Source: a virus
Virus record (IMG/VR): IMGVR_UViG_3300034112_000369
Location: 1-31,023 of that record
Strand: one strand, 5' to 3'
Length of the DNA: 31,023 bases
Shown: piece after piece, positions 23,849 to 31,023 of the stretch
Layout: each line of letters starts with the position of its first letter
Numbering within the stretch: position 1 is the stretch's first letter
Notes under the pieces: generated by a model
What the model saw: only the letters and a program-made list of their open reading frames with translations
Told to the model about the DNA's origin: nothing
The model's database searches: none
Made by a program: the position numbers and the translations under genes

Positions 23849-25744
23849 CTAGATGAACTGTCTGTCTTTTTCTGCAAGTAGTTCATCTATGTTGACTACT
23901 ACTCGCTTGCCCCGTTCGTAACGGGACAAAAATGGATTTCGTAAATGGTGGGTGGTGTGGATACCTTGGTTGAGCCACTCACGTACTTTGATTTCGCAGA
24001 ACCAGAGAGCCATCACCATATCGGTCTTACCTTTAGTGGTAGGTGACCAAGTAATAAGTTGCTCTATTAAAGCCTTGATATTCTCTGTCTGATCTGAAGG
24101 TAGGTGCATCAGATTATCTCGATGATGCTTACCATCTGCCTGCTTAGTACCAAAGAGGGTGGACATAGATGCCACACCGAAGCCTGCATCCCACTTATTG
24201 TTACCAGTGTGGTGCTCTCTTAGGATAGTTCCTTTGGATGCAAGGAATTGCCTAATTCCCTCATCTTGCGTGAGAAAAGATTGAAAGGCATTACGCTCGA
24301 CGATCCATTCCGCAGGTGCATATACGTTAGTCCAATCGGTAATGAGCTGCCTGATTTGTGCAGGCGTAGGACGCGTAATCTTGATAGCGTCCACAATGTA
24401 GCGCTTATGAGAAATCCTATCAACCGCATAGCAGATTGCCGCTGTGTCTCCGACCATTGCTGGGTCCAGTCCACAAACAAAACTGAAACCGTTGAGGTCT
24501 TTGGGATGACCTGGACTGCCAGGCACCAATCGACCTGCTTTTCGCATTCCATCGATAGAACCTTTCACGCAGACTGGATCAAAGATGGCATCATCTGAAA
24601 TATCTTGTTGCTGATAAACCATAGCCCAGGTAGAGGCATCCATCGCTTGACGCTCATTGTAAAGGTTGCGTCCGTTCCAGCGGGGGTAGAGTCCTTCTTC
24701 GTTCTTGTCAGATTCTTCTTGTCCATCAAATGGAGCATCAGAATGCGACCAGAGGGTCTTCCATTGGTCAGGGTCTTCATTAGGCTCAAGTAGGGCTGGC
24801 ATAGCCAGATAGGTCCAAGGAACCAAACCACCAGGGTATCTATCAGGTGAGCGTAGTTCTCTATAGAGGTCTACTGCTGCAACGCGGGTACCGATAACGA
24901 TGAGCTTGCCTGTCGGGTTAAGACGGCTTCGTACATCTTGAGTGAGCCACTTAATCTGTCGTTCAAAGTCATTGGCATTCGAGAGGGTAACTGCGTCATC
25001 GATAATGATCATATCGGCACGCTTACCGTAAATCTGACCGCCGATACCTACAGCTTCTAGGTTGGGGTCCTTCTCAGATGACTCACGGAGTTCATCACCG
25101 AAGGTGACGCGGGTGGCCTGCCAGGAGGCCGTCTTAGATTTGAACCCAACCCCAGCGGCGTAAGCCTGCTGTAGTTCTTCGTACATCGGGTGCGTCAGTC
25201 GCTGCTTGATAGCATAAAGGAAGTCTGCGGCTAGACGCTGGGTTTGGGAAACTATGAGAACTCTAAAGTTCGGGTTATTAATAATCTTCCAGGTTACGTA
25301 GTCTACGGTGACGGTAATAGACTTGGCGTGGTTAGGAGGAATGTTGATAAGGATGCGGTTATCTGCCAGACCCTTTTCATACTTCATCGCAGGATGGTGC
25401 CAACTGGGGCTACGCCCCTCTATGACATCTATCAGGTTCTGCTGGTGTGGGAAGGTCTTGGACTTGAGGAACTTCTGGCGGAACGCCGCGAAGTCTAAAT
25501 CTTTGGTCTGCTCTTCGATAAAGGATTGACCGCGTAAACCTAGGCGGGTTCTATCCATCCGATCTGCAAAGACCTTATCGGAGCGTCTGTAGTATTCGTA
25601 GGTCTTGATAGACTTGCCAGCGGATTTGCAGGCATCTTCTACCTTCATACCCTGAGCTACGCATTCTAGAATAATGCGCTTTGCTATATCAGCGCTGTTT
25701 TCTGTAATGGCAGGCTCCTGTATTTTTGATAGATTACACCCCAC
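23849..25744 (-). CDS. terL: Terminase large subunit with N-terminal HTH
   Basis: This 631-residue protein has the full ATPase-nuclease layout. Residues 1-70 look like a helix-turn-helix unit (GMKVEDACKSAGKSIKTYEY) of the kind found in small terminase subunits. The ATPase follows with a Walker A-like PPNHAKS (136-142), Walker B MIIIDD (245-250) and coupling GTR (285-287). The RNase-H-fold nuclease has D427 (GLDPAMVGD), E483 (VERNA) and D575 (KTDMVMAL). It cuts and translocates phage DNA into the head. No separate small terminase gene is visible, so this N-terminus may take over site recognition (inference). The start is a GTG without a clear ribosome site, just past two hairpins. Confidence 0.93.
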   Translation of the reverse strand: MGCNLSKIQEPAITENSADIAKRIILECVAQGMKVEDACKSAGKSIKTYEYYRRSDKVFADRMDRTRLGLRGQSFIEEQTKDLDFAAFRQKFLKSKTFPHQQNLIDVIEGRSPSWHHPAMKYEKGLADNRILINIPPNHAKSITVTVDYVTWKIINNPNFRVLIVSQTQRLAADFLYAIKQRLTHPMYEELQQAYAAGVGFKSKTASWQATRVTFGDELRESSEKDPNLEAVGIGGQIYGKRADMIIIDDAVTLSNANDFERQIKWLTQDVRSRLNPTGKLIVIGTRVAAVDLYRELRSPDRYPGGLVPWTYLAMPALLEPNEDPDQWKTLWSHSDAPFDGQEESDKNEEGLYPRWNGRNLYNERQAMDASTWAMVYQQQDISDDAIFDPVCVKGSIDGMRKAGRLVPGSPGHPKDLNGFSFVCGLDPAMVGDTAAICYAVDRISHKRYIVDAIKITRPTPAQIRQLITDWTNVYAPAEWIVERNAFQSFLTQDEGIRQFLASKGTILREHHTGNNKWDAGFGVASMSTLFGTKQADGKHHRDNLMHLPSDQTENIKALIEQLITWSPTTKGKTDMVMALWFCEIKVREWLNQGIHTTHHLRNPFLSRYERGKRVVVNIDELLAEKDRQFI

Positions 25745-25750
25745 TAAAAG

Positions 25751-25788
25751 GGGCGCCGCTTGCGCCCATCTCGGGCTTGGCGCCCGAG
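25751..25788 (-). promoter_or_regulatory. Two tandem GC hairpins at the terminase start
   Basis: GGGCGC/GCGCCC with a five-base loop (25751-25767) and CTCGGGC/GCCCGAG with a five-base loop (25770-25788) sit 7 to 44 bases before the terminase GTG. The interval where a ribosome site should be holds no purine-rich match. The hairpins could hide or replace a ribosome site, or end an upstream transcript. Confidence 0.6.
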
Positions 25789-25905
25789 CTAGCCACAGCG
25801 ACGCGAGGGGTAAGACTGCTACACCCTTTATCGGGCGTAGCGTAAGCGTAGCTAGCAGGTAGACTCACGCCATCCTGTCTACCTGTCTATACTGTATTAG
25901 GCAGG

Positions 25906-25929
25906 AAAAAAAAGCGGTTTCCCGCTTTT
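25906..25929 (-). terminator. Strong intrinsic terminator, minus strand
   Basis: On the minus strand AAAAGCGG, loop GAAA, CCGCTTTT is followed by four more T, so eight U in total follow the GC part. That is a textbook rho-independent terminator with a GNRA loop. The plus-strand version has only TTTTGTT and is weaker. It would stop leftward transcripts before the terminase gene. Confidence 0.85.
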
Positions 25930-25942
25930 GTTCAATAAATCT

Positions 25943-25970
25943 TTTATTTGTGACGGAAGTCACTAATAAA
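25943..25970. promoter_or_regulatory. 28-base dyad with GTGAC core
   Basis: Two arms TTTATT and GTGAC are mirrored as GTCAC and AATAAA around a four-base centre (GGAA), with one T:T mismatch on each side of the core. It is AT-rich outside and lies just right of the minus-strand terminator. It fits a repressor operator or an origin-type recognition site; no protein is assigned. Confidence 0.5.
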
Positions 25971-26108
25971 TACGGACAAACTAGGACAGTGATCGAGAAT
26001 AGCTTCACTTTAGTGGAGATATTTAGAGTGGGTCTATACATATCCCTGCCCCTGCTTTTATCACCTAGGGTTGCCCTTGTCTTTCTGCTGGCATTACCCC
26101 ACCCCTGC

Positions 26109-26127
26109 CTCTCTCTATTCGAGAGAG
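26109..26127. other. CTCTCTC/GAGAGAG hairpin
   Basis: A perfect seven-base-pair stem with a five-base loop (TATTC) lies inside flanks CCCCAC and GTGGGG that could extend it through an internal loop. It directly precedes a run of G-rich repeats. Confidence 0.5.
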
Positions 26128-26128
26128 T

Positions 26129-26156
26129 GGGGGAAAGTGGGGGAAGGTGGAAGGGG
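26129..26156 (+). repeat. G-rich imperfect tandem repeat
   Basis: Three units related to GTGGGGGAA follow each other (GGGGGAAAGT, GGGGGAAGGT, GGAAGGGG). Runs of five, five, two, two and four G on the plus strand are close enough for a G-quadruplex in single-stranded DNA. No gene covers it. Confidence 0.5.
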
Positions 26157-26287
26157 CGATAGCCTCCTCGGCACCTGTGCCTCGCCATAATATTGTCTGC
26201 CACTAGATAATAAACCGCCACCGATAGACCGATACACGCCGTTAGCACTCTCGCGGTCTAAGTGCCAAGCCCTCACCCCCGCCCGAT

Positions 26288-26303
26288 AGTTGAACTTTCA
26301 ACT
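26288..26303. promoter_or_regulatory. AGTTGAA-CT-TTCAACT dyad
   Basis: A perfect seven-base dyad with a two-base centre lies 67 bases before the -35 box of the rightward promoter. The short centre suits binding of a dimeric regulator rather than an RNA hairpin. Confidence 0.4.
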
Positions 26304-26369
26304 AAGTCTCAACCTAAACTCTAGACTTTACGCCCTAAAGGTTTGACTGGTCATAACCGACAACACACC

Positions 26370-26397
26370 TTGACAGGTTAGACTAGCCTCGTATATC
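26370..26397 (+). promoter_or_regulatory. Rightward promoter of the early operon
   Basis: TTGACA at 26370-26375 is a perfect -35 box, followed after 16 bases by TATATC at 26392-26397. The first gene of the plus operon begins 50 bases further on. The spacer is filled by an imperfect dyad (see the operator entry). Confidence 0.7.
26375..26389. promoter_or_regulatory. Operator-like dyad, copy 1
   Basis: AGGTTAGACTAGCCT is a near-perfect palindrome (AGG.TAG.CTA.CCT) lying exactly between the -35 and -10 boxes of the rightward promoter. The same 15 bases recur at 27555-27569. A bound repressor here would block RNA polymerase. Confidence 0.55.
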
Positions 26398-26423
26398 TTT
26401 CTCCTTATCGGCAACACCGCCGA

Positions 26424-26450
26424 ATGAACCGAAAAGGGGCAAAGAAATGA
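26424..26450 (+). CDS. Possible eight-residue leader peptide
   Basis: ATG at 26424 opens a tiny frame (MNRKGAKK) whose TGA overlaps the ATG of the first real gene (ATGA). The leader of the 51-residue gene further right has the same design. It may couple ribosomes onto the main gene; it could also be chance. Confidence 0.3.
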   Translation: MNRKGAKK

Positions 26451-26614
26451 CACGCAAAGACTACGAACTACTGGCAGAAACTATCGCCACCGCGTGGTGG
26501 CATAATAGCGATTACAAGTCTCACTTTGCTAGTGCTCTCGCCGATAAACTAGAAAACGAAAATCCACGCTTTGACCGCCACCGCTTTCTTGTGGCTTGCG
26601 GGGTGATGAACTAA
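26447..26614 (+). CDS. First early gene, actinophage-type (55 aa)
   Basis: The product MTRKDYELLAETIATAWWHN then SDYKSHFASALADKLENENP and RFDRHRFLVACGVMN is helical with a repeated aromatic/acidic pattern. The layout T+.D(Y/F)...A......F...LA..L...NPRFDR.RFL.ACG matches short proteins common in actinobacterial phages, plasmids and conjugative elements, with no known function. The stop shares a base with the next ATG (TAATG). It is the first gene after the rightward promoter. Confidence 0.75.
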   Translation: MTRKDYELLAETIATAWWHNSDYKSHFASALADKLENENPRFDRHRFLVACGVMN

Positions 26615-26829
26615 TGAGCGTTTTTTATGTAGCAAATCAGAACGGCGATTGGTGGAAGATTGACACCGAATCGGGCGAGGGAATGACCCTCTTCGTTATC
26701 TCCGAAGCAGACCTAGCCCGCGCCGTAGCAGAAGAGAACCCCGAACTACCAGAGATTGACCTCGCCGACACCGACAAATTAGAGAGGGCGATTACTAGAC
26801 ACGGCGAAGCAATAGACCTAGAACTCTAG
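26614..26829 (+). CDS. Acidic protein, unknown (71 aa)
   Basis: The start at 26614 (MSVFYVANQNGDWWKIDTES) is chosen because it is an ATG on the previous stop; a TTG six codons upstream is less likely. The protein has a beta hairpin front with a double Trp and an acidic helical rear (ADLARAVAEENPELPEIDLA, then KLERAITRHGEAIDLEL). It is strongly acidic, like many phage early proteins that mimic DNA or inhibit host enzymes, but this is only a resemblance in charge. No family is recognised. Confidence 0.7.
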   Translation: MSVFYVANQNGDWWKIDTESGEGMTLFVISEADLARAVAEENPELPEIDLADTDKLERAITRHGEAIDLEL

Positions 26830-26840
26830 CGTCTGCCTAT

Positions 26841-26862
26841 CGCTCACCCTCACGGGTGGGCG
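26841..26862 (+). other. Leader hairpin 1
   Basis: CGCTCACCC pairs with GGGTGGGCG around a TCAC loop (nine pairs with one G-U), followed by GTGGGGAGG. An equivalent hairpin, also followed by GGGGAGG, precedes the 100-residue gene at 27618. There is no U-run, so it is more likely a mRNA processing or pausing element than a terminator. Confidence 0.55.
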
Positions 26863-26881
26863 GTGGGGAGGTTCTAGCCGA

Positions 26882-26911
26882 ATGAGCGAACCCCGAAAGG
26901 ATAAGAGATGA
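26882..26911 (+). CDS. Possible nine-residue leader peptide
   Basis: ATG at 26882 starts MSEPRKDKR, ending in a TGA that overlaps the ATG of the 51-residue gene. The sequence around it, GCCGAATGA then CGAAAGG, is shared with the leader of the first gene. It is a candidate for translational coupling only. Confidence 0.3.
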   Translation: MSEPRKDKR

Positions 26912-27063
26912 ACACGAAAGACATCGCCGTAGATTTACACGAGACGGACGGCTTCACCCTCTCCGCCATTATCGAGGGCTATCTCGTCCAACGCCGATAT
27001 ATCGGGCACAATATCAAGGAAGCGAAACGCGACTTTATCGCCCGCAACAAGGAGAACGCATAA
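26908..27063 (+). CDS. Small basic/helical protein (51 aa)
   Basis: The product MNTKDIAVDLHETDGFTLSA continues with IIEGYLVQRRYIGHNIKEAK and RDFIARNKENA. It is helical, with alternating charged faces in the second half. AAAGGATAAGAG gives a good ribosome site about 8 bases before the ATG. The stop shares a base with the next ATG. No family is recognised. Confidence 0.65.
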   Translation: MNTKDIAVDLHETDGFTLSAIIEGYLVQRRYIGHNIKEAKRDFIARNKENA

Positions 27064-27188
27064 TGAACGAGACAGAAGATTTCAAGTCGGGCGTTAGATA
27101 CGCCCTTGCCTACCTTTCAGATGTATATGAGGGCGTAGTAGAAACCGACATCTGGACAGAGTTTATGACAGAAGAGGAGGGCGCATAA
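27063..27188 (+). CDS. Small acidic protein (41 aa)
   Basis: The product is MNETEDFKSGVRYALAYLSD, VYEGVVETDIWTEFMTEEEG and a final Ala. It is acidic and helical. Both ends use TAATG overlaps with the neighbours, which argues for a real gene in a coupled series. No function can be assigned. Confidence 0.65.
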   Translation: MNETEDFKSGVRYALAYLSDVYEGVVETDIWTEFMTEEEGA

Positions 27189-27373
27189 TGAGCGAGTGGC
27201 TAATCAACCGCGAGGCGGTAGAAGAACGCTTCGGACAACCCCTCACAGAGGAAGAATGGAACGCGGTCACCGAAGAAGTAGAGGGGCGCGTTGAGAACTT
27301 TATCGAGGAAATACTCGACGGAGTTCTTGAGATGAAAGTGTGGGCAGAGCACAAGGCAAGGGAGGGCAAGTAA
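27188..27373 (+). CDS. Acidic helical protein (61 aa)
   Basis: MSEWLINREAVEERFGQPLT is followed by EEEWNAVTEEVEGRVENFIE and EILDGVLEMKVWAEHKAREG. It is strongly acidic and predicted helical, with a possible helix-turn-helix-like front (NREAVEERFGQPLTEEEWNAV), though too short to call. The start lies on the stop of the previous gene and the stop on the next ATG. Unknown role. Confidence 0.65.
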   Translation: MSEWLINREAVEERFGQPLTEEEWNAVTEEVEGRVENFIEEILDGVLEMKVWAEHKAREGK

Positions 27374-27537
27374 TGAACTCGATCGAACAGAAGCGCGAAC
27401 TGTGGGCAGGGATAGCGAAGGCGAACGGCTGGCATAGTGAGCCATTCTTTGTTCAAGTGTGGATAGATGAGGAGGGGGAAATTGTGGATAGCGTCTCGTT
27501 CGCAGGGCTAGACCGCGACATAATTGAACGCGCCTAA
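27373..27537 (+). CDS. Small protein, unknown (54 aa)
   Basis: The ATG at 27373 is chosen because it overlaps the previous stop (TAATG); a start eleven codons earlier would run through that gene's end. The product MNSIEQKRELWAGIAKANGW, HSEPFFVQVWIDEEGEIVDS, VSFAGLDRDIIERA has a helix followed by two or three beta strands. No family is recognised. It is the last gene before an 80-base leader gap. Confidence 0.65.
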   Translation: MNSIEQKRELWAGIAKANGWHSEPFFVQVWIDEEGEIVDSVSFAGLDRDIIERA

Positions 27538-27566
27538 TGCTTGCCTTTCCCACTAGGTTAGACTAG
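27537..27566 (+). CDS. Possible nine-residue leader peptide into a hairpin
   Basis: An ATG on the stop of the 54-residue gene starts MLAFPTRLD and ends at TAG within the hairpin at 27549-27575. If translated, ribosomes would open that hairpin, as in attenuation leaders. The frame is very short and may be chance. Confidence 0.25.
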   Translation: MLAFPTRLD

Positions 27567-27575
27567 CCTAGTGGG
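27549..27575 (+). promoter_or_regulatory. Leader hairpin 2 containing operator copy 2
   Basis: CCCACTAGGTT pairs with AGCCTAGTGGG around AGACT, eleven pairs with one G-U. Its centre, 27555-27569, is identical to the 15-base dyad in the first promoter. It is followed by GGAGGGGAGG, not by U, so a terminator is unlikely. A protein-binding site or an RNA element are both possible. Confidence 0.6.
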
Positions 27576-27582
27576 GAGGGGA

Positions 27583-27599
27583 GGTCTTAGAGTAAGACC
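27583..27599 (+). other. Leader hairpin 3
   Basis: GGTCTTA pairs with TAAGACC around GAG, a perfect seven-base-pair stem ending just before CCCACGAAAGGATAAGAG, the ribosome site region of the 100-residue gene. It corresponds in place to the GGTTC/GAACC pairing at 26870-26892 in the other leader. Confidence 0.55.
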
Positions 27600-27617
27600 C
27601 CACGAAAGGATAAGAGA

Positions 27618-27920
27618 ATGGAAACAGTAACAAGTTACGCTGAACAATTCGCTAATGATTGGCTATTAGTGGCAGAGAATGATTACGAGACTTATCGCTC
27701 ACTACTAGAGCAAGAGGGCGAGGAGGTAGCCACTATCTCCGATAATTTGCGGGAGGAGTGGGAGACACTAACCGCGCAAGTCGTGGAATTGGTAGAGGAG
27801 AAGATTAGCGACACCGCTTCCCTCTTTATTGCTCAAATGTTACAGGGGCAGGGCTCGACACCTTTCGACCTTATCGCTCGCCGTGTCCTTGAATTGAAGG
27901 CGGAGGTGGCTCGTGTTTGA
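27618..27920 (+). CDS. Acidic helical protein (100 aa)
   Basis: The product METVTSYAEQFANDWLLVAE has a helical, acidic body (NDYETYRSLLEQEGEEVATI, NLREEWETLTAQVVELVEEK) and a C-terminal helix with STPFDLIARRVLELKAEVAR. It is one of the larger early proteins and is preceded by the same CGAAAGGATAAGAG ribosome-site module as the 51-residue gene. The charge profile recalls inhibitors or DNA mimics, but no motif supports this. The end overlaps the next start by 8 bases (GTGTTTGA). Confidence 0.7.
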   Translation: METVTSYAEQFANDWLLVAENDYETYRSLLEQEGEEVATISDNLREEWETLTAQVVELVEEKISDTASLFIAQMLQGQGSTPFDLIARRVLELKAEVARV

Positions 27921-28029
27921 GGTATCAACGAGCTGGACGAATGGGCTAGGGCAAGTGCTGGTCTATTGCCTAGCGATAGGGCTAGGGCTTTACCTAATGA
28001 GCAAGATAGGAAGAGAGGGCAAGAGATGA
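27913..28029 (+). CDS. Tiny membrane protein (38 aa)
   Basis: The GTG-started product MFEVSTSWTNGLGQVLVYCL AIGLGLYLMSKIGREGKR has one hydrophobic helix (about residues 12-29) followed by a basic tail, so the C-terminus would be in the cytoplasm. It overlaps the previous gene by 8 bases and the next by ATGA. It could be a holin-like or membrane-targeting peptide; nothing else identifies it. Confidence 0.6.
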   Translation: MFEVSTSWTNGLGQVLVYCLAIGLGLYLMSKIGREGKR

Positions 28030-28145
28030 GCGATATCTGCCTAGTGTGCGGGGAGAATTACCCACCTAACGGAATAGTGATGTGTGATGACTGCGGTATG
28101 GATAAAGATATAGAACAACAACAAGAGAGAGAGGGCAACAAGTGA
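28026..28145 (+). CDS. Mini zinc-ribbon protein (39 aa)
   Basis: MSDICLVCGENYPPNGIVMC DDCGMDKDIEQQQEREGNK has two CxxC pairs (Cys 5/8 and 20/23), the classic zinc ribbon spacing, and a short acidic tail. Such mini-ribbons may bind nucleic acid or partner proteins. The start overlaps the previous stop by ATGA and the stop overlaps the next GTG (GTGA). Confidence 0.7.
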   Translation: MSDICLVCGENYPPNGIVMCDDCGMDKDIEQQQEREGNK

Positions 28146-28384
28146 AGGTCAAGGAACTAATGAAGCAACTAGAAATCTACGGGCAAGAGGACGAGATTTT
28201 AGTGCTGTATTTCGACAAGGAAACAACAGAGGAACATCACGAGCAGGAGATTACCGACCAACAATGGGGGGAGATCGTGAGCAGGGTAGAGAATACAACT
28301 ATGCCCGAAATTGACTACATCAGAGAAACAATAGACGAACAGACCGAGCAGGTATTACGAGAAGGGAGAAAGGCTAATGCGTGA
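28142..28384 (+). CDS. Acidic protein, unknown (80 aa)
   Basis: A GTG start with GAGGG upstream opens MKVKELMKQLEIYGQEDEIL, followed by VLYFDKETTEEHHEQEITDQ and QWGEIVSRVENTTMPEIDYI. It is acidic with a helix, a strand (ILVLYFDK) and a long helical rear. The opening (K.L...L..YGQ.D.IL..Y.D.E) resembles short proteins in several phages that encode a DUF of this type, but the match is too weak to name. The end overlaps the next gene by 8 bases. Confidence 0.7.
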   Translation: MKVKELMKQLEIYGQEDEILVLYFDKETTEEHHEQEITDQQWGEIVSRVENTTMPEIDYIRETIDEQTEQVLREGRKANA

Positions 28385-28553
28385 GTATGGACTACGCAAG
28401 ACGGAAATCTACTACCTCCGAGCCAATTCGGAGGAGGAAGCGAAGGAGAAACTCGATCAAATGGACAACTCTTACGCTTGGACTGTTGAGGTAGATGTCT
28501 GCTATGTGAGTGGAGAACTACAAGACTGGGAGAAAGAGGGAGTCAATGCCTAA
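28377..28553 (+). CDS. Small protein, unknown (58 aa)
   Basis: The product MREYGLRKTEIYYLRANSEE, EAKEKLDQMDNSYAWTVEVD, VCYVSGELQDWEKEGVNA has alternating strands and a helix (a ferredoxin-like mini-fold is possible: strand, helix, strand). It overlaps its neighbours on both sides by 8 bases. This fits a small regulatory protein, but no family is recognised. Confidence 0.65.
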   Translation: MREYGLRKTEIYYLRANSEEEAKEKLDQMDNSYAWTVEVDVCYVSGELQDWEKEGVNA

Positions 28554-28695
28554 GTGTGGAGTGTGTGGCGGTGGCATAAGTAATACCCTCGTGCCTCACG
28601 GCGCGATTTGTGATGATGACAGAGTGGGGGAGAGAGTGCCCTACTCACCTGAAATAGATGACCTAATCAAAATGGAGGAGGAGTTTCGTGGCTAA
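28546..28695 (+). CDS. Mini zinc-binding protein (49 aa)
   Basis: The ATG at 28546 (MPKCGVCGGGISNTLVPHGA) is used in preference to an in-frame start at 28510, which would lie wholly in the previous gene. The product has CxxC (Cys 4/7), His 18 and Cys 22, possibly a CCHC-type zinc site, followed by an acidic tail. It overlaps the next gene by 8 bases. Unknown role. Confidence 0.65.
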   Translation: MPKCGVCGGGISNTLVPHGAICDDDRVGERVPYSPEIDDLIKMEEEFRG

Positions 28696-28861
28696 ATGGA
28701 AGTGTACAGATTGCGATAATATGTTTGACATTGATCAAGGAACCTATGATATGGAGTGGGGCTTTCATTGTATCTACTGCGGTGGGTTAGAGGTTCACGG
28801 AGTTATAACCTCAACTGATATCAAGTTTGCAGCAATTATGTTACGAGAGGGATTGATATAA
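28688..28861 (+). CDS. Mini zinc-ribbon protein (57 aa)
   Basis: A GTG start gives MAKWKCTDCDNMFDIDQGTY DMEWGFHCIYCGGLEVHGVI and a helical rear (TDIKFAAIMLREGLI). Cys 6/9 and 28/31 make a second two-pair zinc ribbon. Codons here are visibly richer in A and T than in the genes before, which may mark a different origin. It ends one base before the next ATG. Confidence 0.7.
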   Translation: MAKWKCTDCDNMFDIDQGTYDMEWGFHCIYCGGLEVHGVITSTDIKFAAIMLREGLI

Positions 28862-28862
28862 A

Positions 28863-29069
28863 ATGATTGCCCTAAATGGCCCTACTGAAGGCAAGATTTA
28901 CAAAACATCAATTATTACTACAAAGGTTATTGACTATGTTAGGTACGGTTCCTCCCTGTTTGAGGTTACTTACTACAGAACAAAGAATGGGTGGGCTTTC
29001 CACTCTTGGAGATTAGCTTTTAGTTTGTACATCAAAAATAATAATGACCTAATCAAGAAAACTAGATGA
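28863..29069 (+). CDS. Small basic protein, unknown (68 aa)
   Basis: MIALNGPTEGKIYKTSIITT KVIDYVRYGSSLFEVTYYRT then KNGWAFHSWRLAFSLYIKNN reads as a short beta barrel with an aromatic rear. It is one of the few basic proteins in this operon. The DNA is AT-rich. No family is recognised; a small SH3-like fold is possible. Confidence 0.6.
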   Translation: MIALNGPTEGKIYKTSIITTKVIDYVRYGSSLFEVTYYRTKNGWAFHSWRLAFSLYIKNNNDLIKKTR

Positions 29070-29080
29070 AGGAGAGGGAA

Positions 29081-29257
29081 ATGACTAAGCCAACTAAAGA
29101 ATACTATCAAGCAAAGGCAGACCTATGTCAGAAGTTAGCAGTCGAGGCTATGACAGAGGGAGACAGCAAGACAGCAGGAGATAACCTGATCCGTATGGTG
29201 AATGCCTTGAACCAACTCAACCTAATCAACTATCAAGAGGAGAAGAAGAATGGCTAA
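29081..29257 (+). CDS. Small helical protein (58 aa)
   Basis: I choose the ATG at 29081 (MTKPTKEYYQAKADLCQKLA) because GGAGAGG precedes it by 5 bases; an ATG at 29066 overlapping the previous stop is the alternative. The protein is helical (VEAMTEGDSKTAGDNLIRMV then NALNQLNLINYQEEKKNG) with a possible two-helix hairpin. Unknown function. Confidence 0.65.
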   Translation: MTKPTKEYYQAKADLCQKLAVEAMTEGDSKTAGDNLIRMVNALNQLNLINYQEEKKNG

Positions 29258-29375
29258 GACATACACGATAACGCTAGAGCTGGAGTGCGATAGCGACCCG
29301 AATGAATGGGTATATCCCGAAGTGTTAGTGATAGACGAGCCTTATCGAGTAAAGAAAGTGGAGGAGAACAAGTGA
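29250..29375 (+). CDS. Small acidic protein (41 aa)
   Basis: MAKTYTITLELECDSDPNEW VYPEVLVIDEPYRVKKVEEN K reads as two beta strands with an acidic loop, like the N-terminal strands of small phage proteins of the MSTYTVTVEVEADS type. It overlaps the previous gene by 8 bases and the next by GTGA. Its role is unknown. Confidence 0.6.
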   Translation: MAKTYTITLELECDSDPNEWVYPEVLVIDEPYRVKKVEENK

Positions 29376-29629
29376 AGCTCATCAATTTCTATGAGGTAAT
29401 GAACTACAAGGGTGACATTGAATGGGGAGGGGCGAGCGCGAGTGAGGCTATCAAGTGGTTTCGCAAGGGCTTCAACAACTCTATCTTTGTATCAGTATGG
29501 AACGAGGAGGACATAGAGGAACCCGTCCTCGTCACCGATAAGATAGAAGTGACGAACCTATTGCTCTCCCTGCTGGTGAGTGAGAGGGAGGAGTATTACC
29601 CCAAGTCCAAGAAAGAGTGGGCGCGATGA
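29372..29629 (+). CDS. Small protein, unknown (85 aa)
   Basis: The GTG at 29372 gives MKLINFYEVMNYKGDIEWGG ASASEAIKWFRKGFNNSIFV then SVWNEEDIEEPVLVTDKIEV and a helical end. A start 22 codons earlier is in frame but lies inside the previous gene. The beta-alpha-beta look (INFYEVMNY..., EAIKWFRKG, SIFVSVWNEE) resembles small phage proteins of unknown role. It overlaps the next gene by ATGA. Confidence 0.65.
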   Translation: MKLINFYEVMNYKGDIEWGGASASEAIKWFRKGFNNSIFVSVWNEEDIEEPVLVTDKIEVTNLLLSLLVSEREEYYPKSKKEWAR

Positions 29630-29709
29630 TATTCTTAGGCGTAATCGTTATCTGTTGCCTTGCTTATATTCTCATTTGCTGGGAGGATAAGCTCAATGAA
29701 CCTAGATAG
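29626..29709 (+). CDS. Tiny membrane peptide (27 aa)
   Basis: MIFLGVIVICCLAYILICWE DKLNEPR is almost entirely one hydrophobic helix with a short charged tail. The ATG overlaps the previous stop, and the end overlaps the next gene by 14 bases. It lies one gene before the lysin, which makes a holin-like or lysis-accessory role possible, but 27 residues is shorter than usual. Confidence 0.6.
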   Translation: MIFLGVIVICCLAYILICWEDKLNEPR

Positions 29710-29995
29710 ACGCAAGGCTAGTGCTGAGAAGCGAGCCGTATGGCTACGCAACTATCAGCGAGCACGAGGGCGAGCTATGACACGCCTAGCCAAGCACCAC
29801 CCCGACCAATTCAAGGAGATCTTGGAAGAAGAAAGGCTATCTGATGAGGCTAGCGGTAAAGCGTGGAGTGATATTACTGGCGGGAGGGCTAGCACTATGG
29901 ATAGTGCTGGCTCACCCAGCAGGTCAGTTACATCTACCCAGCAACAAACCCACAGAAATCAGCAGGACGAAGGCTACGTGGGAGGAGAAGAATGA
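29696..29995 (+). CDS. Basic N-terminus, disordered C-terminus (99 aa)
   Basis: The ATG at 29696 has GGGAGG upstream. The first half is Arg/Lys/Ala-rich and helical (NLDRRKASAEKRAVWLRNYQ RARGRAMTRLAKHHPDQFKE) with a pattern common in actinophage proteins of this size, possibly nucleic-acid binding. The second half (residues 50-99) is low-complexity (GGRASTMDSAGSPSRSVTST) and is encoded where the lysin's signal anchor is read in another frame, so the lysin probably sets the constraint on this stretch. Its stop overlaps an ATG of a further frame (ATGA). Confidence 0.65.
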   Translation: MNLDRRKASAEKRAVWLRNYQRARGRAMTRLAKHHPDQFKEILEEERLSDEASGKAWSDITGGRASTMDSAGSPSRSVTSTQQQTHRNQQDEGYVGGEE

Positions 29996-30269
29996 GAACA
30001 GAAAACTGGCAAAGCAATACGCGTGGGTTGCGTTTGGTTGGAGAGGAGGAGAGTGGCTCTGCCTCCACGATTTATGGACCCGTGAGAGCAGGTTTGACCA
30101 CCTCGCAAGTAATCAGCAAGGAAGTTCAGCTTTTGGAATCGCTCAAATGCTTGGAGAAGAAAGTCGAAATCCTAGAATCCAAATACTTAGAGGTCTTCGA
30201 TACATTTCTGAGCGTTACGGAAGCCCTTGTCAGGCTTTCCGTTTTCACCAACGCAACAACCACTACTGA
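29844..30269 (+). CDS. Lysin, transglycosylase-like, signal-anchored
   Basis: The 141-residue protein has a basic start (MRLAVKR) and a hydrophobic helix (GVILLAGGLALWIVLA, residues 8-23) that would export it or anchor it in the membrane. Residues 60-141 match a lysozyme-like/transglycosylase fold: WLCLHDLWTRESRFDHLASN with the likely catalytic Glu 81, SSAFGIAQMLG, and RGLRYISERYGSPCQAFRFH. This pattern is typical of small actinobacterial phage lysins and resuscitation-factor-like enzymes that cut peptidoglycan. The first 152 bases overlap the 99-residue gene in a different frame. The ribosome site is weak (AAAGG at 8 bases). Release at the end of infection is the likely role. Confidence 0.88.
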   Translation: MRLAVKRGVILLAGGLALWIVLAHPAGQLHLPSNKPTEISRTKATWEEKNENRKLAKQYAWVAFGWRGGEWLCLHDLWTRESRFDHLASNQQGSSAFGIAQMLGEESRNPRIQILRGLRYISERYGSPCQAFRFHQRNNHY

Positions 30270-30288
30270 GGAGGGCGAGAGTGTTTAG
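29992..30288 (+). CDS. Doubtful ORF nested over the lysin (98 aa)
   Basis: The frame MRTENWQSNTRGLRLVGEEE... fills the interval between the 99-residue gene (ATGA junction) and the 53-residue gene (8-base overlap), exactly like other junctions in this operon. It also contains a coiled-coil-like run (EVQLLESLKCLEKKVEILES). However, almost all of it lies on the lysin in another frame, and the lysin has clear family features. It is probably a by-product of the lysin reading frame, though a dual-coding gene is not excluded. Confidence 0.25.
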   Translation: MRTENWQSNTRGLRLVGEEESGSASTIYGPVRAGLTTSQVISKEVQLLESLKCLEKKVEILESKYLEVFDTFLSVTEALVRLSVFTNATTTTEEGESV

Positions 30289-30442
30289 ATACTGGCTACT
30301 CTTTGGTATCAAGAGAGGTTGGATCAGCAAGCCATACTGTATGACACACGATGGCAACTACGAATATATGACAGAGGAAGAACACGAGGAGTGGGAAGGT
30401 GGCGGAGATCCCTGCCATACTGCTATCTCTCTGTTACAATAA
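30281..30442 (+). CDS. Last early gene, actinophage-type (53 aa)
   Basis: The GTG start (GGAGGG about 6 bases upstream) gives MFRYWLLFGIKRGWISKPYC MTHDGNYEYMTEEEHEEWEG then GGDPCHTAISLLQ. The pattern F.YWLL..I..GW.SKP.C..H.G...T.EE..EWE.GGDPC is recurrent in actinobacterial phages. The Cys/His placement (Cys 20, His 23, Cys 43, His 44) might bind zinc. The function is unknown. It is the last gene before the terminator. Confidence 0.75.
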   Translation: MFRYWLLFGIKRGWISKPYCMTHDGNYEYMTEEEHEEWEGGGDPCHTAISLLQ

Positions 30443-30483
30443 GAACTGCCGAGAGTTACTTATCCTTTCGCTCGGCGTAAGAT

Positions 30484-30506
30484 ACCCCGCTTCGGCGGGG
30501 TTTTTT
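30484..30506 (+). terminator. Intrinsic terminator of the plus operon
   Basis: ACCCCGC and GCGGGGT flank a TTCG loop, followed by TTTTTTATTT. This is a textbook rho-independent terminator with a UUCG tetraloop, 42 bases after the last stop. Its T-run reaches into the stop codon of the convergent FmdB-type gene. Confidence 0.95.
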
Positions 30507-30684
30507 ATTTGTCTTTGTCTGTCGAATAGAACCCTGATCCTCGGAAAGAGATAGGAGGCGAGGACCAGAGTCTATCCATTAGGTTACCGCAGTCAGCACA
30601 AGAGGGGGTGCTAGCTTCGGCGTGGATTGAACGCTCAACGGAAAGGGTCGTCAAGCAGTTCTGACATTTGTATTCGTAGATCAT
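30505..30684 (-). CDS. FmdB-type zinc-ribbon protein (59 aa)
   Basis: MIYEYKCQNCLTTLSVERSI HAEASTPSCADCGNLMDRLW SSPPISFRGSGFYSTDKDK is a compact FmdB family protein. It has the Y.Y.C..C opening (Cys 7/10), a second pair Cys 29/32, the R..S.P.I.F+GSGFY.TD ending, and family-typical length. Unlike the zinc ribbon at 10901-11242, it retains the GSGFY end. The gene converges on the plus operon and its TAA overlaps the terminator's T-run. It overlaps the end of the gene before it by ATGA. Confidence 0.9.
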   Translation of the reverse strand: MIYEYKCQNCLTTLSVERSIHAEASTPSCADCGNLMDRLWSSPPISFRGSGFYSTDKDK

Positions 30685-31023
30685 AAAGCAAAACCATAGT
30701 CTAGGTGGAGGAAGCCAACAAGTTTCATAATCCTGCGGGTATCAGAGAACTCTGTGGTCGCTGGCATACGACGCTCTGACCAGGTTGGTTCAGGCACACG
30801 CGATAAGTCAAAGGCGTAGATACCCTGCGGAGTGGAGTTGATGTAGTAAGGAGTGCGAGTACCAGCTTGGTTGATAAGCCTGCGGTACTTCATCTCTTCA
30901 ATCAGCAGGTCAGGGTAGTGGGTATGCCTACACTTCAACTCTATGTAGAGGTTCTTCTCATTGGTGGTACAGTCGAAAGAATCGTAGGCCCCTTCACTCT
31001 TTTCTAAGTCGGGGAAATGACTA
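30681..31023 (-). CDS. PD-(D/E)XK nuclease-like protein, N-terminus missing
   Basis: The frame is open from the right window edge to a TGA at 30681, so 113 residues are visible and the start is lost. Near the edge DLEKSEGAYDSFDCTTNEKN is followed by LYIELKCRHTHYPDLLIEEM, which fits a D...(D/E)xK nuclease core: Asp in SFDC and Glu-Leu-Lys in IELKCR, then a helix with a conserved-looking KYRRLINQAG. It continues as GTRTPYYINSTPQGIYAFDL. A DNA-cutting role in recombination, packaging or host DNA degradation would be typical. It is an inference from pattern; the missing N-terminus would be needed to confirm. Confidence 0.6.
   Translation of the reverse strand, partial: SHFPDLEKSEGAYDSFDCTTNEKNLYIELKCRHTHYPDLLIEEMKYRRLINQAGTRTPYYINSTPQGIYAFDLSRVPEPTWSERRMPATTEFSDTRRIMKLVGFLHLDYGFAL

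Follow-up and report, generated by a model that had tools for sequence, protein, structure and literature searches.

Two promoters in the early region of a 31-kb linear IMG/VR virus record (all 31,023 nucleotides of which are hereafter called the window) share a 15-nucleotide sequence that lies at the heart of a larger conserved dyad. This dyad is probably an iron box of the DtxR/IdeR type. We lean, by a small step beyond even, toward the view that the two 15-mers belong to iron-box-type operators at the early promoter PA and the predicted promoter PB, that a repressor of the host would read them, and that the RNA stem-loop surrounding the PB copy is a separate element.

The 15-mer AGGTTAGACTAGCCT occurs exactly, on the plus strand, once at each promoter (Table 1), as an earlier note on this DNA had reported. 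A search of the whole window with up to 3 mismatches returned nothing beyond these same two sites read on the other strand. Within positions 25700-31023, the only exact 15-mers that recur are AGGTTAGACTAGCCT and the Shine-Dalgarno-like CGAAAGGATAAGAGA, and any 15-mer repeat was present in 4/200 shuffles of that region. The earlier note had the first copy exactly filling the spacer between TTGACA and a -10 element TATATC. The copy does lie between the two promoter elements, but it overlaps the last base of TTGACA; moreover, TATATC (26392, 16-nt spacer) is possible, but TATCTT with its 18-nt spacer is the better -10 candidate. Likewise, the gap with the second copy, 27538-27617, is not the only other long one: that at 26830-26907 is also long and contains a member of the stem-loop family found at PB.

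Table 1. Features at and between the two promoters of the window
Feature	Positions	Strand	Basis
PA: TTGACA 26370-26375, 18-nt spacer, TATCTT 26394-26399	26370..26399	+	promoter scan; TTGac / TAnnnT conserved in relatives
Two overlapping iron-box-like 19-mers at PA	26373..26396	+	26373-26391, 9.2 bits; 26378-26396, 8.7 bits
15-mer, copy 1	26375..26389	+	exact match search
Stop codon TAG of second early gene, 5 nt ahead of type C stem-loop	26827..26829	+	reading frames
Type C stem-loop, same family, without operator or -10	26832..26871	+	R1 match 21.2 bits; fold z -2.6
Shine-Dalgarno block CGAAAGGATAAGAGA ahead of ATG 26908	26894..26908	+	15-mer repeat
Stop codon TAA of upstream gene, 5 nt ahead of stem-loop	27535..27537	+	reading frames
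Type B RNA stem-loop, 45 nt, 17-bp stem plus basal pairs	27540..27584	+	folding, covariation, family match
PB (predicted): TTGCCT 27541-27546, 17-nt spacer, TAGCCT 27564-27569	27541..27569	+	invariant alignment columns
Iron-box-like 19-mer CTAGGTTAGACTAGCCTAG, 15/19 to TTAGGTTAGSCTAACCTAA	27553..27571	+	top DtxR-matrix match in window, 15.7 bits
15-mer, copy 2	27555..27569	+	exact match search
Small hairpin GGTCTTA-GAG-TAAGACC, 5' leader expected from PB	27583..27599	+	folding
Shine-Dalgarno block CGAAAGGATAAGAGA ahead of ATG 27618	27603..27617	+	15-mer repeat

To follow the motif in relatives, we used the terminase encoded in the window, which gave 599 matches from which 80 loci were fetched; extra motif copies were gathered by pattern scans. 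The count at PA rests on the 61 terminase relatives with at least 1050 nt of upstream sequence. In 26 of these, GWTAGAYWAGCCT (at most 1 mismatch) lies about 600-1000 nt from the terminase start and points into the early operon, whereas the other 35 lack it at the early promoter. The motif therefore marks a clade. In the PA sites of relatives, it occupies the spacer between TTGAC or TTGCG and TAnnnT, with a degenerate -35 in two or three members. The second of the two overlapping registers, which is shifted and runs into the -10, as in TTAGAYTAGCCTCGTCTAA, is the stronger in most relatives (up to 16.9 bits); in the window the two nearly tie. Several other features accompany PA. Its transcripts would also start with a small hairpin, like the PB leader, both in the window (26410-26424) and in relatives, among which the hairpin varies (e.g., GCCTGGC-GCCAGGC, GGTTAG-CTAACC). 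In one subgroup (L037, L038, L043, L044, and L119), PA is immediately preceded by repeated GTTATC units (CGTTATCAAATTGTTATC), and TTGACCGATTATGACCG is found upstream of PA in other relatives.

The relatives also revise the unit that is conserved. Both places carry the exact 15-mer only in the window and its close kin, L093 among them, whereas the wider group keeps a 19-bp iron-box-like palindrome. The dyad GGNTAGNCTANCC has 34 copies in 1.09 Mb of sequence, where chance would give 1 and the reversed control gives 0, and all 34 are at PA or PB sites. This set was partly selected by the motif; the terminase-selected subset alone holds 12 copies, again all at PA or PB. Thus, the idea of a dedicated operator gains from sites that fall only in intergenic promoters and from conservation in the clade, but not in the form first given, with the 15-mer as the unit and the extended palindrome as part of the operator.

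PB is a prediction that scores below the promoter-scan cut-off. Its elements form 29 distinct intergenic copies that precede many different genes and follow the pattern TTGCnT-17/18-TAnnnT. In an alignment of 27 copies, the invariant letters are TTGC.T, TA...T 17/18 nt on, and a TA opposite the latter, which is the pattern predicted for a promoter with a corynebacterial-type -35 (consensus TTGCCA; PMC1382209). Each junction is built in the same order. The stop codon of the preceding gene, in most cases at a distance of exactly 5 nt, is followed by CTTGCC[T/C][T/A]TC and by a variable stem that carries the motif at its apex and closes with the compensating strand; after these come GG[A/T]GGGGAGG, another, small hairpin, GAAAGGATAAG, and, 29-50 nt on, a start codon. 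All 63 hairpins examined come after a reading frame that ends where the hairpin begins or slightly earlier, and all are followed by a start codon with its own Shine-Dalgarno block; the proteins encoded downstream, sorted by eye, are of more than a dozen kinds. The sequence CGAAAGGATAAGA(G/A)A, which resembles a start-associated repeat, precedes start codons, in the window and in relatives, after both stem-loops and after many PA leaders. A reading of the two as a class of host promoter was dropped: the PB pattern was found in 0 of 84,980 genomes and the PA pattern in 6, scattered and chance-like.

Likeness to iron boxes was measured with a symmetric DtxR matrix made from the 31 Corynebacterium glutamicum sites with an expression effect (Table 1 of PMC1382209), which themselves span 7.1-19.6 bits. 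The choice of regulator was post hoc, prompted by the motif, and DtxR is the only regulator compared. Across 862 kb comprising the terminase relatives and the window, 14 matches reach at least 14 bits, versus 1 in the reversed control. Of these best 14, eleven belong to PA or PB; two represent a single conserved site in coding sequence, in L018 and L019, and one, in L045, is unassigned. Strong matches outside PA and PB in L018, L019, and L021 lie in coding sequence (AIEWFRRGLDNS...) and were set aside. In the window, the PB site at 27553-27571 ranks first and the PA site at 26373 fourth. The best PB copy, TTAGGTTAGCGTAACCTAA in L094, reaches 24.1 bits and agrees with the consensus at 18/19 positions, the copies in L025 and L029 reach 21.3 bits, and PA sites of relatives score 5-16.9 bits. 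Among 4000 randomised palindromic matrices of equal information, none fitted either PA or PB as well on average; under a milder shuffle, 4 and 2 of 4000 reached these fits, and never both together.

The form and the placement of the sites agree with this result. Each is a 19-bp palindrome like TTAGGTTAG(G/C)CTAACCTAA that overlaps the spacer and -10 of predicted PA or PB. Similarly, boxes of the C. glutamicum DtxR regulon are 19-bp palindromes (TTAGGTTAGSCTAACCTAA) with a one-base centre that overlap the core promoter (PMC1382209), and PB copies match them at up to 18/19 positions. The half-site GGNTAG departs from the textbook GGTTAG at the position expected to be T, and this third position is looser than in known DtxR/IdeR boxes; the corynephage tox operator TTAGGATAGCTTTACCTAA likewise has a GGATAG half. 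In the PA site of the window, the right half reads AGCC rather than AACC. Known boxes serve iron genes or a cargo toxin gene, whereas those described here would place early phage promoters under a putative binder; tox, the known phage gene under DtxR control, is cargo and has no part in an early promoter. Two perfect 19-bp copies of the iron box TTAGGTTAGSCTAACCTAA stand 85 bp apart in intergenic sequence of another, apparently unrelated phage, represented by four IMG/VR contigs (L153 4047 and 4132; L154, L155, and L156 likewise).

The earlier note saw no repressor gene in the window and named a host repressor as one option, and our searches agree. No DtxR domain was found in the window or in 12 relatives and no HTH_3 domain in those 12; for other helix-turn-helix families, 79 early and middle proteins were scanned with Pfam, among the top 25 families listed. 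With neither DtxR nor HTH_3 found in the phages, the sites are likely to be read by a repressor of the host. WhiB is encoded by 10/12 relatives, and a sigma-70 region 4 protein by two of the three examined, one of them below the cut-off; these genes (L151 5641-6273 and 9803-10204, L152 9899-10243, all on the minus strand) lie in a part of the genome missing from the window. Cultured 'Ca. Planktophila' phages E7 and F5 likewise carry WhiB and sigma-70 region 4 (PMC10202952), and this shared content makes an actinobacterial host likely. The terminase of E7 and F5 is 45% identical to that of the window, and neither a strong iron box at the early promoter nor a match to the stem-loop was found in these two phages. 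A host DtxR/IdeR would be the simplest binder. In C. glutamicum, DtxR sites that overlap a promoter repress it (PMC1382209), from which repression would be expected when the cell is iron-replete. That a lytic phage should then accept repression in such cells is a point against the proposal.

It is also conceivable, though on balance unlikely, that the sites serve an unrecognised dimeric repressor encoded by the phage for early shut-off and that their iron-box likeness is convergent. Most early proteins are small and without a Pfam or PHROG function, so a novel repressor could hide among them, the sites occur at phage promoters only, and the consensus leaves the textbook box at the third half-site position. 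Such a repressor is harder to reconcile with the domain searches in the 12 relatives and with a DtxR-site likeness above that of all 4000 randomised palindromic matrices.

The palindrome extending around the second 15-mer is real, as the earlier note claimed, and reaches 45 nt, but it is better described as a separate RNA stem-loop than as part of the operator. In 24 copies, 15 stem pairs are 99.7% paired, and double changes occur at 6 pairs in 35 cells, versus 8.7 in shuffles (0/500 reach it); sliding the pairing partner abolishes the signal. Such compensatory changes mark a conserved structured RNA. Furthermore, G-U pairs are frequent, such that the stem pairs perfectly in RNA but imperfectly in DNA. 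Many other junctions, 26832-26871 among them, have hairpins with this lower stem but a different apex and neither -10 nor operator; the stem-loop is therefore a separate intercistronic element that PB shares. The centre of the iron box falls at the hairpin apex in nearly every PB lineage. An operator displaced from the apex was considered for L018, L119, and L115 and dropped, since the 19-bp box is centred at the apex there too. Type C hairpins are near-identical before quite different genes (L119 7177-7216, L101 2522-2561, L105 3013-3052, and others), which suggests recent spread of a cassette. A search of Rfam gave chance matches only, none above the gathering score.

For the stem-loop, we prefer a role in processing or message stability. 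Stem-loops of the T7 type that are cut by RNase III are stable and lie between early genes, some of them beside internal promoters; unlike these, the loop described here carries a predicted operator and -10. By analogy only, the polypurine blocks GGGGAGGGGAGG and GAAAGGATAAGAGA could fit a stabilising leader, as the katG mRNA of mycobacteria is stabilised by a polypurine leader (PMC2358910). That the stem-loop instead terminates PA transcripts, with PB restarting transcription, appears doubtful. Hairpins of -21 to -31 kcal/mol that begin right behind a stop codon and have a predicted promoter after them would suit a terminator, but no U-run follows the hairpin, neither stem-loop of the window is in the terminator scan list, and the type C copy has a gene downstream yet no restart promoter.

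The strong covariation, G-U pairs included, and the lower stems that occur without an operator might also mean that the palindrome at 27555 is an RNA element and nothing else, acting in processing, stability, or termination, and that the PA spacer resembles it through the coincidence of TA-rich promoters. We regard this as improbable. A matrix derived from PA matches 28/29 PB copies at p 0.0003 to about 0.02 under a null that keeps the hairpin pairing and promoter hexamers. With the hairpin-preserving null, the DtxR matrix also gives p<0.05 in about 21/29 PB copies, the remainder including L021, L115a, L103, and the L018 type. The copies are related by descent, and counts of this kind, those of the matrix matches included, are not independent events. 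Moreover, PA is located ahead of the start site it serves, where an action as RNA is impossible. That the motif serves promoter recognition, for instance by a phage sigma factor, is very improbable: a sigma-70 region 4 protein is encoded in relatives and the motif keeps one orientation relative to transcription, but its offset from the -35 and -10 differs between PA and PB, and the hexamers stand at standard spacing. Two further candidates were dropped, namely an integron attC-like site (GTTAGAC fits GTTRRRY, but variants do not, and the core is at the apex rather than the base) and a single-stranded hairpin promoter of the Frpo/N4 type, whose -35 and -10 would here be on opposite arms.

Several phage systems resemble this arrangement in part. 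The stoperators GGTGGMTGTCAAG of cluster A mycobacteriophages such as L5 are likewise short oriented sites that lie at an early promoter and between genes. A scan with the stoperator sequence gave 2 matches versus 1.5 expected, none at the PA or PB sites. The SAS/ESAS repeats of cluster K mycobacteriophages (PMC3203893) also occupy early intergenic gaps before different genes and place an inverted repeat ahead of a Shine-Dalgarno-like repeat at start codons. However, the ESAS arms are reported to be unable to pair as RNA, whereas the stem-loops described here covary strongly, and SAS GGGATAGGAGCCC has 0 matches in the window with up to 2 mismatches.

Taking up the iron-box proposal again, we envisage that a metal-bound dimeric repressor, most likely the host DtxR/IdeR, would cover the spacer and -10 of PA, which precedes the first early gene, and of PB, which lies between two later early genes. 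It would block RNA polymerase and let go when metal is scarce. The PB operator would be embedded in the separate 45-nt stem-loop directly after the upstream stop codon. In RNA reading through from PA, this stem-loop would fold and most likely separate the upstream and downstream messages by processing or stability, and transcription would begin anew at PB, giving an RNA with a short hairpin at its 5' end and a Shine-Dalgarno block of the standard kind. Four points limit our confidence: the weak PA score in the window, the departure from the textbook box at the third position of the half-site, a regulator chosen post hoc, and a distribution confined to a clade.

The broader picture, to which we give slightly less than an even chance, is of a clade of freshwater actinophages with early promoters under the iron repressor of the host, in which one operator forms the apex of a mobile promoter/RNA-hairpin cassette that inserts between various early genes. 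The iron status of the host may then decide whether the first phage genes switch on. If the host iron regulator does bind, the early infection programme of a lake phage group would be tied to host iron status, and a connection of iron limitation with phage success could be tested. The hairpin-promoter-operator cassette is a compact, reusable junction design, and perhaps it explains the shuffling of small early genes in these phages.
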